A stretch of DNA of 37,576 nucleotides from Campylobacteraceae bacterium (GTDB lineage Bacteria > Campylobacterota > Campylobacteria > Campylobacterales > Sulfurovaceae), in NCBI GenBank assembly GCA_027068975.1, contig JALXFN010000137.1, forward strand, positions 1 to 37,576. Direction: 5' to 3'. Position numbers and translations under genes: made by a program. Positions 1,097-36,534 of the stretch are shown piece after piece (position 1 is the first letter of the stretch; each line of letters starts with the position of its first letter). A model generated the notes under the pieces. It did not search any database. It was not told where the DNA came from and saw only the letters and a program-made list of their open reading frames with translations.

Positions 1097-1762
1097 ATGA
1101 AAGCAGATGAAGAAGTAATCAAACAATCCATAATCTATCTTAATCAAAACAAAAAAGAGTTTTTAGAAACCTACACCAAAGGCATAGAACCCTCAACAGA
1201 TAAAGTGGCTATCTTTACAGCAGGTATGAGTGGAGTAGGCAAAACGGAGTTGGCAACCTTTTTAAAAGAAGAAAATCCAAAACTTTTACATATTGATACA
1301 GATGAGATTAGAGAGTTTTTTAGACCAATTGGTTATGATGGTCAAAACTCAAACCTTTATCAAAAAGTAGCAAGTCGAGGTTTTTCTGAACTCTTTTCTC
1401 ATAGTTTAAAAAAGGGTTACTCCTTGATTATGGACTCAAATTTTGCTAATATAGAGGTAGCAGTTTTAAATATTAAGCGTTTACTCAAAAAATCGTATAA
1501 GATTGAGATTTTTTATCTTTATGATTACCCTGAACGGTGTTATGAGTATGCCACAAGACGAGAGGTTATAACCCATAGAAAAGTGCCAAAAGATGTTTTT
1601 GCACGGAGCAATCTTAACTCTTATAAAACCGTTTTAGAGATAAAAGAGCTTTTTGAAAAAGAAGTTGAATTAACCTTTTTTGACAAAAGAAACGCTAATG
1701 TTTACAACAATATAGAAATAGACTTATTAAAAAGTCTGATAGGAGAAAATTTTGACATTTAA
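1097..1762 (+). CDS. Zeta toxin family P-loop kinase
   Basis: 221 residues. The Walker A motif GMSGVGKT is at 43-50, after a hydrophobic strand (VAIFTA), and a DTDEIREFF segment follows at about 67-75. This matches the zeta/PezT layout, whose members phosphorylate UDP-N-acetylglucosamine and so block cell-wall synthesis. It is shorter than classical zeta (about 287 residues), as are many chromosomal members. No epsilon or PezA antitoxin gene lies upstream; a 54-codon ORF overlaps the 3' end instead. The Shine-Dalgarno sequence is weak and an inverted repeat lies just upstream. It could also be a non-toxic AAA-type kinase. Fold certain, toxicity inferred. Confidence 0.75.
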   Translation: MKADEEVIKQSIIYLNQNKKEFLETYTKGIEPSTDKVAIFTAGMSGVGKTELATFLKEENPKLLHIDTDEIREFFRPIGYDGQNSNLYQKVASRGFSELFSHSLKKGYSLIMDSNFANIEVAVLNIKRLLKKSYKIEIFYLYDYPERCYEYATRREVITHRKVPKDVFARSNLNSYKTVLEIKELFEKEVELTFFDKRNANVYNNIEIDLLKSLIGENFDI

Positions 1763-1991: not shown

Positions 1992-3293
1992 CTACTGCGT
2001 AGTACAAACAGAACAGACATCAAAAGTACGAAAAACAAAAGTAGCCTCCTCAACACTCTTAGCCCCCACCATTGCTTTTATAGCAACCCCTTGCTCCTCT
2101 TTTGTACCATGACTTAAGTTCCATTGGGTTGGGGTAATAATCTCATAATTGACTATTTTCCCATTTTTTACTTTTGTTTTATGAATTAGTGAACCACGAG
2201 AAGCCTCTACAATACCAACCCCTTCAAAGTGTAAAGCCATCTTGTTTAGAGGTAGGGTACATGAGGGTTCATCTAAAGCAAGGTTTTGAAGTAGGTTTTT
2301 ACAACTCTTCAAAAGTACTCCAACCTCATCGACACGTGCAAAAACTCTAGTCATCAAAGAGTCCTTGTAACGTTTATGCAATGATTTAATAATAGGACGT
2401 TTTGCAACCATACCTCGTGAGAGTGAACCTACCTCATAGAGTCTCTTTTTGTACTCAACTGCTTTAGCTACCGTGTTCTCTTGCATGGACTCTTTGACAT
2501 AACGAACATCTACCTTTGAGAGTTGCGTACCAATGGACTTTGCCGAAACAGAGAGTGGTGACTCTGCAAAGACAATAAATCGGTCATGACTCTTTCCTAT
2601 GGTTGCCATGTCGTTACTTCCTAGCAGATAGAGAAGATTTCCAAAATCTCCCTCAATTTCAGAGAGTTGTGTAATAGATTTAATAGCCAAATACTCCTCT
2701 AAATCCATACCTATAACCACCTGCTCAAAAAAGCGAATGCTCTCCTCTACTAGACTCTGTGCTTGTATCACATCTAAATGGGTTGGGTCACAACTCACTC
2801 CACCTACCACAGCGTAACTAGAGTGAGGCCACTGCCCTGCAAAGATGGCAAGTGCTTTGGTTATGGTAGTAGAGAGATAAGAGGCTTTTATGGCGTAGTT
2901 CTCCTCACTTCTTTCTCCTACATAACGCTTTAGTTGGGGTAAAATAGTTAAGTAGAGCCACTTAATATGATTTTGTATCAATTCACACGCTAGAGTAAAC
3001 TCTCTAATATCTTTTGCTTTAGAAGAGAGATTAACCTCAACCCCTGCCCTTTTATAACCATCTTCAATAGCACGAACCGAAGCGATAAGATGTGCATGGT
3101 TACAGATACCACAGACACGAGGGGTAATTACCAAAGCATCTCTTGCATCTTTCTCTCTTAAAATCTCCTCTATGCCACGGTAAAATCCAAAGTTTATCTT
3201 GACATCGTCTATCTCTCCATCATTAAAGGTAAAATCAAGTTCAGCTTCCCCCTCTATCTTCTCTATAAGCTGTTTCATCTCCACTTTTTTCAT
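1992..3293 (-). CDS. NiFe-hydrogenase large subunit, sensor (HupV/HoxC-like)
   Basis: 433 residues. The N-terminal nickel motif is R59-V-C61-G-I-C64-N-H-A-H68 (RxCGxCxxxH). The C-terminal motif is D425-V-C-S-V-C430-T-T-Q433, so all four Ni-binding cysteines are present. The protein stops exactly where the usual DPCxxCxxH motif ends: there is no cleavable C-terminal peptide, Pro is replaced by Val, and the last His by Gln. Catalytic uptake hydrogenases carry a C-terminal extension removed by an endopeptidase; sensory ones (HupUV/HoxBC) lack it. At 433 residues it is also smaller than membrane-bound uptake enzymes. Its start overlaps the small-subunit stop by 4 bases. No maturation genes are nearby. 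Sensor role inferred; hydrogenase family certain. Confidence 0.85.
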   Translation of the reverse strand: MKKVEMKQLIEKIEGEAELDFTFNDGEIDDVKINFGFYRGIEEILREKDARDALVITPRVCGICNHAHLIASVRAIEDGYKRAGVEVNLSSKAKDIREFTLACELIQNHIKWLYLTILPQLKRYVGERSEENYAIKASYLSTTITKALAIFAGQWPHSSYAVVGGVSCDPTHLDVIQAQSLVEESIRFFEQVVIGMDLEEYLAIKSITQLSEIEGDFGNLLYLLGSNDMATIGKSHDRFIVFAESPLSVSAKSIGTQLSKVDVRYVKESMQENTVAKAVEYKKRLYEVGSLSRGMVAKRPIIKSLHKRYKDSLMTRVFARVDEVGVLLKSCKNLLQNLALDEPSCTLPLNKMALHFEGVGIVEASRGSLIHKTKVKNGKIVNYEIITPTQWNLSHGTKEEQGVAIKAMVGAKSVEEATFVFRTFDVCSVCTTQ

Positions 3294-4177
3294 TTATCGT
3301 ACTCCAAAAGACGTTCACTAAAACGCTTAATCTTAAAACTTTTTGTCACCCCTGTAAGGGTCAAATAGGCTCGTCGTGGTACACCCAAAGGCATCTTAGC
3401 AGGTATCCCCATATTGGTCTTGGTAGTAAAGAGTGAAGTTTTAGGAAAAGAGGGTTCAGTACAACCAAAACATGGCGTTCCTACACGTGTTTTAGAGCTT
3501 GTATCGTTCCATAAAATCTTGTTACAAGAGCCTCTTGTATAAGGTGCTTGACACCCTTGCTCATAAAAGAGACACCCCTCTTTAAGTCCAAAGTTTTTGA
3601 CATCTACTTTCCACTCAAAATACTCATTACGTGTACATCCCATGTGTACGGTATAACCATACAGCTCTACAGGTCGATGGAGTTCATCAATCTCTACCTT
3701 TTTACCATTGGTAATCATTAGTAACACAAAAGAGAGCCATCTAGGGTGAATTGGACAACCAGGAAGTGAGATAAGTTTAGAGGCATACTCTTTATAACGA
3801 GCTGTCTTCTCCTCTATATCAAAAGCAAAACCTGAAATCTTATCAGGCTCTTTTTGTTTAAATATCCCACCAAAAGTAGCACAAGTTCCTACTGTAATAA
3901 TATCTTTTGCTCTTTTGGCATAATGCTCAATCACAGATGAGACCTCAACCCCTGCTTTTAAAAAACCCTCTTGGACAAAAGAGCCTTCTAAAATCAACAC
4001 ATCACAAGGAACACTCCCCTCAATTACCTCTTGAAAAGAGTAATCAGACTCCAATACAGGATGATGTATCAACTCAAAATGAGCTAAAATAGAGAAGAGT
4101 TCAGGATGATTTAAAAAGGAGTGAGTGTTTCCATTACAAGTAATGCTCTGAAGCCATAAAAGTTTTGGCTTACTCAT
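3290..4177 (-). CDS. NiFe-hydrogenase small subunit, cytoplasmic (HupU/HoxB-like)
   Basis: 295 residues with no Tat signal, so cytoplasmic and soluble. Cluster ligands are recognisable: C14, C99 and C141 (proximal); H178, C181, C202 and C209 (distal); C218, C236 and C239 (medial). The second cysteine of the usual N-terminal CxxC is N17 (C14-N-G-N17), leaving the proximal cluster one cysteine short. There is no C-terminal membrane anchor. It overlaps the large-subunit gene by 4 bases and begins 3 bases after the tetR stop, so all three genes are surely co-transcribed. The absence of a signal peptide and the tail-less large subunit favour an H2 sensor over an uptake enzyme. A cytoplasmic group 2 uptake enzyme remains possible. 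Confidence 0.85.
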   Translation of the reverse strand: MSKPKLLWLQSITCNGNTHSFLNHPELFSILAHFELIHHPVLESDYSFQEVIEGSVPCDVLILEGSFVQEGFLKAGVEVSSVIEHYAKRAKDIITVGTCATFGGIFKQKEPDKISGFAFDIEEKTARYKEYASKLISLPGCPIHPRWLSFVLLMITNGKKVEIDELHRPVELYGYTVHMGCTRNEYFEWKVDVKNFGLKEGCLFYEQGCQAPYTRGSCNKILWNDTSSKTRVGTPCFGCTEPSFPKTSLFTTKTNMGIPAKMPLGVPRRAYLTLTGVTKSFKIKRFSERLLEYDK

Positions 4178-4180
4178 GCT

Positions 4181-4774
4181 TTAAGCCTTTAGTGCATTGT
4201 AGATATTACGAGAAATATCATCTATGTAAAACTCTATCTCTTGTGGAAGAACCTCTTCACCCTTTAGAAATACCATTCCTCCAAGATACCCCATAAAAAG
4301 CCCAAAAGCTGAAAAAAAGTCTTGGTTACGCAGCTCACCTGAACTTACACCATCATCAAAAAAGACCATAATCTCAGTAATAAACCCACTAACACATATC
4401 ATCCCCTCACAGCCATCGCTAAAGACTTCACGGTTAGAGAGGTAGACACGCAAAAAGTACTCTATCATCTCTGGTTTCTCTTTTGCCATGGTGAAGTAGA
4501 TAGTGACAATCTGATGAATCTTCTCCTCTGCTGAGGCATCGGTATCATTGACTTCACGTATCTTTTCACCCAAACTTTCAGAAGTATATTTAATAATCTC
4601 TTGGGCTAAAATATCTTTAGAGGAGAAGTAGTTATAAAGATTTCCCACCGACATCTTTAACTTTCCTGCAATATCAGGTATGGTGGTTTTATGAAAGCCC
4701 TGTGTAGCAAAGAGTTGAAGTGCTGTTTGTAGGATAGATTCTCGTTTTAGTGCTTTTTTTTCTGATATTTTCAC
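4181..4774 (-). CDS. TetR family transcriptional regulator
   Basis: 197 residues, normal for the family. The N-terminal helix-turn-helix spans about 10-55 (ILQTALQLFATQGFHKTTI, then a recognition segment ending SVGNLYNYFSSKDIL). The ligand-binding part is helical and contains two cysteines (in DGCEGMIC). GTG is the start, preceded by AAAGGA. It leads the hydrogenase operon with a 3-base gap, which is unusual: known H2-sensing hydrogenases signal through a histidine kinase (HupT/HoxJ) and an NtrC-type regulator. It probably represses its own operon, and may link H2 sensing to transcription. The ligand cannot be read from sequence. Confidence 0.85.
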   Translation of the reverse strand: MKISEKKALKRESILQTALQLFATQGFHKTTIPDIAGKLKMSVGNLYNYFSSKDILAQEIIKYTSESLGEKIREVNDTDASAEEKIHQIVTIYFTMAKEKPEMIEYFLRVYLSNREVFSDGCEGMICVSGFITEIMVFFDDGVSSGELRNQDFFSAFGLFMGYLGGMVFLKGEEVLPQEIEFYIDDISRNIYNALKA

Positions 4775-29788: not shown

Positions 29789-30043
29789 ATGAAAACCATA
29801 AATTTTTCCCACACAAGACAAAATCTAGCGTCTACTTTTGATTCGGTTGTTGATAACTGTATGCCTGTTATAGTAACACGACAAAACAAAGAGCCTGTGG
29901 TTATTATCTCCATGAGAGATTACCGTGCTTTAGAAGAGACAGCCTACCTTATGCAGAGTGAAGCCAATGCCAAAAGATTAAATCGCTCAATCGCCCAACT
30001 TGAAGCTGGTCTTGGTACAAAACGAGAGCTTATAGAAGAATGA
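29789..30043 (+). CDS. yefM: YefM-type antitoxin
   Basis: 84 residues, Phd/YefM family: an N-terminal DNA-binding part with VIVTRQNKEPVVIISMRDYRALEE, and an unstructured acidic C-terminus that wraps the toxin. It represses its own operon and neutralises YoeB. It overlaps the toxin gene by 4 bases (ATGA), which keeps synthesis tight. The promoter operator is just upstream. Confidence 0.9.
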   Translation: MKTINFSHTRQNLASTFDSVVDNCMPVIVTRQNKEPVVIISMRDYRALEETAYLMQSEANAKRLNRSIAQLEAGLGTKRELIEE

Positions 30044-30297
30044 TACTTAGCTTTTCAGATGATGCATGGGAAGACTATCTTTACTGGCAACAGAATGACA
30101 AAAAAATTTTAAAAAAGCTCAATAGACTCATTAAAGAGATACAAAGAGAACCTTTTGAAGGCATTGGAGAACCTGAACCTCTAAAATACAACTGGTCAGG
30201 ATATTGGTCTAGGCGTATTACGATTGAACATCGTTTGGTCTATAAAGTGAGTGATGACAATTTGATGATTGCACAGTGTCGGTATCATTATTGGTAG
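30040..30297 (+). CDS. yoeB: YoeB-type mRNA interferase toxin
   Basis: 85 residues. Catalytic positions fall at the E. coli numbers: E46, R65, H83 and Y84 (the end reads CRYHYW, one residue longer than E. coli). YoeB enters the ribosomal A site and cuts mRNA during translation. Intact and in frame, so probably functional. It is followed by a degenerate repeat. Confidence 0.92.
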   Translation: MILSFSDDAWEDYLYWQQNDKKILKKLNRLIKEIQREPFEGIGEPEPLKYNWSGYWSRRITIEHRLVYKVSDDNLMIAQCRYHYW

Positions 30298-36009: not shown

Positions 36010-36477
36010 TCATACAAACGATGAATATTCCCACTCTTTCATCTCTTCAACCAACCCATGTTTAACAGGATTGTTTTGCATATATTCTAAACATCGAAAA
36101 TAATCTTTTTCATCTCTAATGGTATGTTCATAATATCGTTTTTGCCATATAGTTTTTAATCCTCGTCTATATCGGCTAAAAGATTGCTCTTCATCGGTGA
36201 GATAGCAATCGCACCCTACCAATTTGGTTGAAAAATTGTACTTTATGGCTCTTACTATTTTGGGATAATCAGTTGAAATTTCGGGGGTAATTATCATGTG
36301 TATATGGTCAGGCAACACCACAATAGCATCTATCTCATAACTATAATAGCTCTTGCTCTCACGAAAACTCTCTCGTAAAAGTTCAATATGTTCAACAAGC
36401 AAAGGTTTACGCTGATGAGTAACAACAGTAAGATAGTAGCTATGTCCTGCTAAAAAGAGTCGTTTATAATTTGCCAT
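36010..36477 (-). CDS. REP-associated tyrosine transposase (IS200-like, RAYT)
   Basis: 155 residues from ATG 36477 (family members start MANY-R; the longer frame to 36534 is not like the family). H58-I-H60 is the HUH motif (LPDHIHMI), and WQKRYYEH with NNPVKHGLV is the RAYT signature; Y115 or Y116 is the likely nucleophile. RAYTs cut and move single-stranded REP hairpins. Flanking REPs in inverted orientation confirm the partnership. A REP copy lies in frame at residues 87-94. Confidence 0.9.
   Translation of the reverse strand: MANYKRLFLAGHSYYLTVVTHQRKPLLVEHIELLRESFRESKSYYSYEIDAIVVLPDHIHMIITPEISTDYPKIVRAIKYNFSTKLVGCDCYLTDEEQSFSRYRRGLKTIWQKRYYEHTIRDEKDYFRCLEYMQNNPVKHGLVEEMKEWEYSSFV
36196..36220. 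repeat. REP copy inside the RAYT coding sequence
   Basis: GGTGAGAT-AGCA-ATCGCACC plus CTACC, matching the left flank except one stem base and the tail end. On the coding strand it gives V-G-C-D-C-Y-L-T (residues 87-94) without breaking the frame. Confidence 0.7.
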
Positions 36478-36534
36478 AAACAATTCTAACAAAAAAAAAT
36501 TAAAATAAACACTAAAACTCACATACAAAAACAT

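Follow-up and report, generated by a model that had tools for sequence, protein, structure and literature searches.

Hydrogen-sensing [NiFe] hydrogenases of the HoxBC/HupUV type (group 2b) are cytosolic two-subunit enzymes without a Tat signal. Their large subunit (HoxC/HupV) stops at the L2 motif without a cleavable tail, the proximal-cluster motif of their small subunit (HoxB/HupU) is CGGC, and their genes are linked to those of the catalytic hydrogenase under their control. Signalling proceeds through a PAS kinase and an NtrC-type regulator (HoxJ-HoxA, HupT-HupR). The hydrogenase Huc of Mycobacterium smegmatis (group 2a) represents another type: Huc-type enzymes have an Asn at the proximal cluster, a C-terminal tail on the large subunit, and an adjacent protease gene.

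Campylobacterota play an important part in H2 oxidation, both at vents and in sulfidic sediments. Their cytosolic group 2 enzymes have been assigned to group 2d, the Aquifex Hase III type (PMC5401914, PMC6702916), the function of which is unresolved, with regulation and carbon fixation both under consideration (PMC10052474, PMC6702916). A role in H2 sensing was suggested earlier for this hydrogenase (Nakagawa 2007, as cited in PMC4584964); others have suggested a catalytic function (PMC4584964, PMC5401914). The dispute is thus between an H2 sensor without a known output and a supplier of reduced ferredoxin for CO2 fixation. In Sulfurospirillum multivorans, an adjacent TetR gene was noted, and it was suggested that hupSL might be repressed by its product (PMC5357620). 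Apart from this remark, our literature search, in which most subscription journals were outside the scope, revealed no published TetR-hydrogenase circuit, operator, hydA link or regulon; the published 2d descriptions that were searched likewise contain no TetR, operator or regulon.

Organization of the locus

The window analysed here is a stretch of 37,576 nucleotides from a Campylobacteraceae bacterium, and it carries a triad of genes on the minus strand. The first is a TetR-family regulator gene (4774-4181; 197 aa, GTG start, PF00440), followed by the genes for the small subunit (SSU; 4177-3290; 295 aa, PF01058 and PF14720) of a cytosolic [NiFe] hydrogenase and for its tail-less large subunit (LSU; 3293-1992; 433 aa, PF00374). 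According to the ORF coordinates, tetR and the SSU gene are separated by 3 bases and the two hydrogenase genes overlap by 4 bases, which confirms the same-strand operon led by tetR that had been proposed in a preliminary description of this DNA. That description also held that the LSU stops at the L2 motif without a cleaved tail and that the SSU lacks a Tat signal. Both statements were borne out: the window LSU ends in FDVCSVCTTQ, all 150 complete family LSUs terminate exactly 3 residues past the last L2 cysteine, and inspection of the SSU N-terminus (MSKPKLLWLQSITCNGN) revealed no Tat signal.

Co-inheritance of TetR and hydrogenase

When genome contigs of bacteria and archaea were scanned, 42 relatives were returned, every one of them from Campylobacterota, and the distribution of the genes was surveyed in a sample of 397 genomes of this phylum. 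The LSU was present in 113 genomes and a TetR ortholog in 115; 112 genomes had both, 1 the LSU alone, 3 the TetR alone and 281 neither (Fisher p = 1.6e-94, without correction for shared ancestry). The tetR-small-large order, for which the preliminary description had advised a comparison with other Campylobacterota, was conserved in 111 of the 113 LSU-carrying genomes, with TetR directly upstream on the same strand. This adjacency was spread over 38 of the 68 sampled genera, ruling out a chance arrangement in a single strain. As for the two remaining genomes, the LSU is close to a contig end in one (G295), and in the other (G300) it lies 602 bases from the contig start with TetR on a different contig. 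TetR and SSU genes overlapped or were spaced by 0-20 bases in 127 of 131 loci. The tail-less hydrogenase is accordingly co-inherited with TetR in these hydrogen- and sulfur-using Campylobacterota.

A few irregular loci were observed. Decaying tetR genes were seen in two genomes: in G204 (L192) only the broken TetR remains and no hydrogenase match exceeded the family cut-off, and in G208 (L141) the neighbouring sensor and hydAB are intact. On a MAG contig (L046:5839-6971), the start of an LSU shares 4 bases with an unrelated gene upstream of it, without SSU or TetR, which suggests a rearrangement or a MAG chimera.

The absence of a PAS histidine kinase and an NtrC-type regulator, reported earlier for the window, turned out to be typical of the family. 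Relatives of the Cupriavidus necator proteins were found near few of the 159 loci inspected, namely at 3 for the regulator HoxA and at 4 for the kinase HoxJ. Where HoxBC and HupUV are accompanied by these partners, the triad has a TetR protein instead.

Placement of the hydrogenase

The L1 and L2 cysteines were invariant in an alignment of the family LSUs. The expected ligand set for three FeS clusters was conserved in the SSU, except that Asn17 replaces the second proximal-cluster cysteine; the resulting motif is CNGN, and Asn17 is invariant in the family. An Asn at this position is shared with the Huc-type enzymes, and Huc also provided the closest solved structures. Sequence identity of the SSU was 36% with a Huc-type small subunit and 29% with HoxB. 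In a maximum-likelihood LSU tree of 49 rows, from which Aquificota sequences were absent, the triad LSUs formed their own clade (100/100) apart from groups 2b, 2a and 1.

These results were used to evaluate the proposal that the enzyme is a sensory NiFe hydrogenase. A sensory nature is supported by the missing tail and by the separate clade outside the catalytic group 1 uptake enzymes, a placement that the preliminary description had left to be determined. Membership in HupUV/HoxBC is not: both the tree position and the CNGN motif, as opposed to CGGC, refute it. A group 1 uptake enzyme was rejected since the LSU is separate from HydB in the tree and the SSU has no Tat signal. A group 2a uptake enzyme such as Huc was also rejected, given the separate clade, the absence of an LSU tail and the lack of a protease gene in the triad, next to which the group 1 operon hydABCD is found instead. 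Assignment of the triad hydrogenase to group 2d rests on the literature alone, without comparison with Aquificota.

Conservation of the ligands of the NiFe site and FeS clusters would also be compatible with a catalytic cytosolic enzyme supplying reduced ferredoxin to the reverse TCA (rTCA) cycle for the fixation of CO2, with TetR as nothing more than its local repressor. Such a ferredoxin role of group 2d enzymes of this phylum has been put forward as a hypothesis (PMC5401914, PMC2628731), and a strong ATP-citrate lyase match was obtained in 37 of 60 triad genomes. In the other 23 there was no strong match and the hydAB linkage was still kept, which weakens the rTCA cycle as the common factor. 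In addition, the LSU is tail-less and has evolved faster than the catalytic HydB (mean pairwise identity 45% versus 64% in the 109 loci holding all genes), the predicted operator described below precedes hydA and not the triad, and Hase III of Aquifex was hard to detect and was judged to be hardly involved in ferredoxin reduction (PMC10052474). We consider the catalytic explanation unlikely. Two published observations count for a sensor role: soluble H2 uptake is absent in S. denitrificans though the gene is transcribed (PMC4584964), and hupSL transcripts are very low in S. multivorans (PMC5357620). Overall, the evidence favours an H2 sensor over an rTCA reductant and puts a name to the output protein that was missing.

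Linkage to hydABCD

Among the 144 loci whose downstream side was not truncated, 133 were followed on the same strand by the group 1 catalytic operon hydABCD, and hydA, encoding the group 1 small subunit, was at most 1 kb from the triad in 116 of these 133. In the window genome, hydABCD is on a separate contig (C16; L193). Immediately beyond the downstream end of the triad, the window encodes a zeta-toxin-like kinase in the opposite orientation (1097-1762, plus strand; PF06414), followed by the N-terminus of a GmrSD/DUF262 protein (671-1, minus strand; PF03235) that runs off the left end of the contig. The far end of C16 (L193 4614-8238) holds a matching fragment, an open frame of ~130 residues, a HEPN gene of the MAE_28990 type, a C5 cytosine methylase gene and then hydA, all on the minus strand and matching the triad in orientation. 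This arrangement suggests that the two contigs are neighbours, and it is likely that a defence island has been inserted between the triad and hydABCD here, the contig join being inferred in both cases. Elsewhere in the window, a gene at 36010-36534 resembles a REP-associated tyrosine transposase, and a gene pair at 29789-30297 resembles a YefM-YoeB toxin-antitoxin module, both judged by eye.

A predicted operator upstream of hydA

Upstream of hydA, the dyad TGAAT-N4-ATTCA occurred in 81 of 124 loci, and no 5-base dyad occurred more than 5 times in shuffled control sequences. There was no comparable signal in the dyad count upstream of tetR. The hydA-upstream sites follow the palindromic consensus AATGAATrnnyATTCATT, for which no binding data are available. 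A symmetric weight matrix was built from these sites and applied with a score cut-off of at least 10. It identified sites in 112 of 124 hydA regions of triad loci, 16 of 146 tetR regions and 0 shuffled regions; after clustering of the LSUs at 80% identity, the operator was found upstream of hydA in 77 of 88 cases.

Since the matrix was trained on hydA regions of triad loci, genomes without the TetR constitute an independent test. The hydA region reached a score of 10 in only 1 of 30 such genomes. In this genome (G285), hydA is cut by a contig end and neither TetR nor LSU was found, perhaps as a result of incomplete assembly. No operator was detected at hydA in six TetR-less genomes of families f1 (that of the window) and f6, in which hydA is 71-77% identical to that of the window genome. 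The exact sequence TGAATRNNYATTCA was present in 36 copies in 13 TetR-carrying genomes and in 2 copies in 13 genomes without TetR.

Two sites precede hydA in the window genome, starting 93 and 42 bases ahead of the start codon; paired sites were frequently 44-45 bases apart (12 cases). Exact copies in this genome are likewise two, one before hydA and one before hypF. A reversed-pattern control gave 3 matches in the same genome, so it is the location of the sites that counts there and not their number. No operator-like site was found upstream of tetR in the window, and with such sites in only 16 of the 146 tetR regions, autoregulation of the triad by TetR was rejected as a general rule. The predominant absence of the operator before the triad is what would be expected if the sensor were made independently of its own output.

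In 11 of the 144 loci, hydA was not downstream in the stretch read, and some of these had no detected site. In several of the 11, hydA is nearby and carries the operator (G225, G010, G360 and, in divergent orientation, G125). In G225, the usual place of hydA downstream of the triad is taken by a gene for a molybdopterin oxidoreductase, which is preceded by an operator copy (L079:6355-8817). Two further genomes (G143 and G348) have lost the sensor, and their TetR gene precedes group 1 hydAB with an operator in between.

The predicted regulon

Further sites in relatives precede hypA, hypB, hypF and the genes for CbiM, HupE and a NicO-like transporter, the latter with a match below the Pfam cut-off. 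Among relatives, sites were also found before genes for an Oxidored_q6 (20-kDa) subunit and a NapC/NirT-type cytochrome, as well as before genes for a molybdopterin oxidoreductase and for single-PAS proteins. Judged from the palindrome, the putative regulon is a hydrogenase and nickel regulon plus some respiratory genes. As genomes with TetR have the palindrome at their hydA, hyp and nickel-uptake genes, the likely target of TetR is the catalytic hydrogenase regulon and not the triad. Control of hydABCD and of the hyp and nickel genes by TetR, exerted through the palindrome, is strongly supported by sequence comparison, in the absence of binding data.

Features of the TetR protein

The regulator satisfies the criteria of the TetR family, having the TetR_N helix-turn-helix (PF00440) and an all-helical effector domain. 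An AlphaFold2 model (mean pLDDT 90) has the TetR fold, with fold matches down to E = 3.5e-7, the best of which include FadR (TM about 0.8). Most of the PDB sequence matches are limited to the N-terminal half. The palindrome of Bacillus subtilis FadR, TGAATGAnTAnTCATTCA, is similar to that before hydA. It could be argued from the fold that TetR controls the hydrogenase regulon while sensing a small molecule, e.g. acyl-CoA as FadR does, with the hydrogenase not serving as its input, and two genomes indeed keep TetR without the hydrogenase. This is hard to reconcile with the near one-to-one co-inheritance of genes that overlap or almost do so, with an identity to FadR of only about 18%, and with a predicted regulon of hydrogenase and nickel genes, not lipid genes. 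We regard small-molecule sensing as improbable. To our knowledge, neither the cysteine pair described next nor a linked hydrogenase is a feature of FadR.

Two cysteines, C122 and C127, form a CxxxxC pair in all 148 intact TetR orthologs. The pair is absent from five TetR paralogs that stand elsewhere, remote from a sensor (L213:11541-12125, L228:4571-5152, and copies on L225, L226 and L227). As a separate observation, the regions around the L213 and L228 paralogs encode an Oxidored_q6 (20-kDa) hydrogenase-type subunit and also contain operator-like sites. In the model, C122 and C127 are situated in a loop of lower confidence where helix 7 begins. The effector domain (98-175) is more conserved than the DNA-binding domain (72% versus 66%), which fits a constrained partner or ligand.

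The strict conservation of the pair in such a loop, together with nickel uptake in the predicted regulon, could also mean that TetR itself senses redox state, O2 or nickel through C122/C127, independently of the hydrogenase, and so adjusts the production of hydrogenase to anoxia or to the supply of nickel. It would leave unexplained why a complete NiFe hydrogenase is retained almost constantly beside TetR, and we give this explanation very little credence.

A proposed H2-responsive circuit

We propose, as the probable explanation, that TetR represses the hydrogenase regulon and that the co-transcribed hydrogenase is its H2-sensing input. TetR would sit on AATGAATrnnyATTCATT before the genes of the membrane-bound uptake hydrogenase (hydABCD), of hyp maturation and of nickel uptake, most likely as a repressor, a mode of action that is inferred. 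The group 2 dimer, with its NiFe-site and FeS ligands retained, is inferred to detect H2; neither H2-dependence nor contact between TetR and hydrogenase has been demonstrated. Reaction with H2 would then relieve repression, by direct contact or by electrons passed to C122/C127 of the effector domain, while the sensor would be produced independently of its output from a mostly operator-free triad. That the signal goes straight to TetR through these cysteines, by electrons or contact, and thereby forms a kinase-free one-component circuit widespread in Campylobacterota, is a tentative idea about which we have more doubt than confidence. The link between hydrogenase and TetR is inferred from guilt by association and the cysteine pair.

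The circuit as a whole is supported by the co-occurrence and adjacency of TetR and LSU, the linkage to hydA, an operator that tracks TetR, the sites at hyp and nickel genes, and the operator placed directly between TetR and hydAB in G143 and G348. The role of the hydrogenase as a sensor is supported by the tail-less LSU, the few operators upstream of tetR, the lower conservation of LSU than of HydB, the conserved effector domain and the CxxxxC pair. Against the circuit, G143 and G348 show that TetR can persist without the sensor, and the eleven loci without hydA downstream in the stretch read and the L046 LSU start without SSU or TetR do not conform to it. The membrane hydrogenase of S. multivorans, constitutive with or without H2 (PMC5357620), also counts against it; the cultures of that study were grown on pyruvate, from which Sulfurospirillum makes H2 (PMC6242987).

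The proposed circuit belongs with the known H2-sensing hydrogenase circuits, as a variant in which a TetR output replaces the kinase and NtrC-type regulator, and the predicted TetR sites before the main hydrogenase, nickel and maturation genes point to an undescribed gene switching by hydrogen. TetR, its operator and the hydABCD/hyp/nickel regulon give the sensor view a testable output. If this reading is true, annotations that count the group 2 enzyme as reducing power for the rTCA cycle would need revision, and the repressor-promoter pair, compact and responsive to H2, would be of use in building biosensors.

Other genes near operator sites

A conserved protein of ~210-220 aa, in which CxxC motifs resemble a zinc ribbon, is repeatedly encoded next to the hyp, nickel-transporter and operator regions (L212:7457-8113, L221:7885-8550, L038:9875-10477, L138:16094-16852 and others); the two copies searched had no Pfam match. 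Small PAS-domain proteins were also observed, with an operator copy in front of the gene (L214:3665-4222, L222:4670-5227) or encoded between hydABCD and hypF (L260:17518-17880), and these may link H2 to energy taxis.
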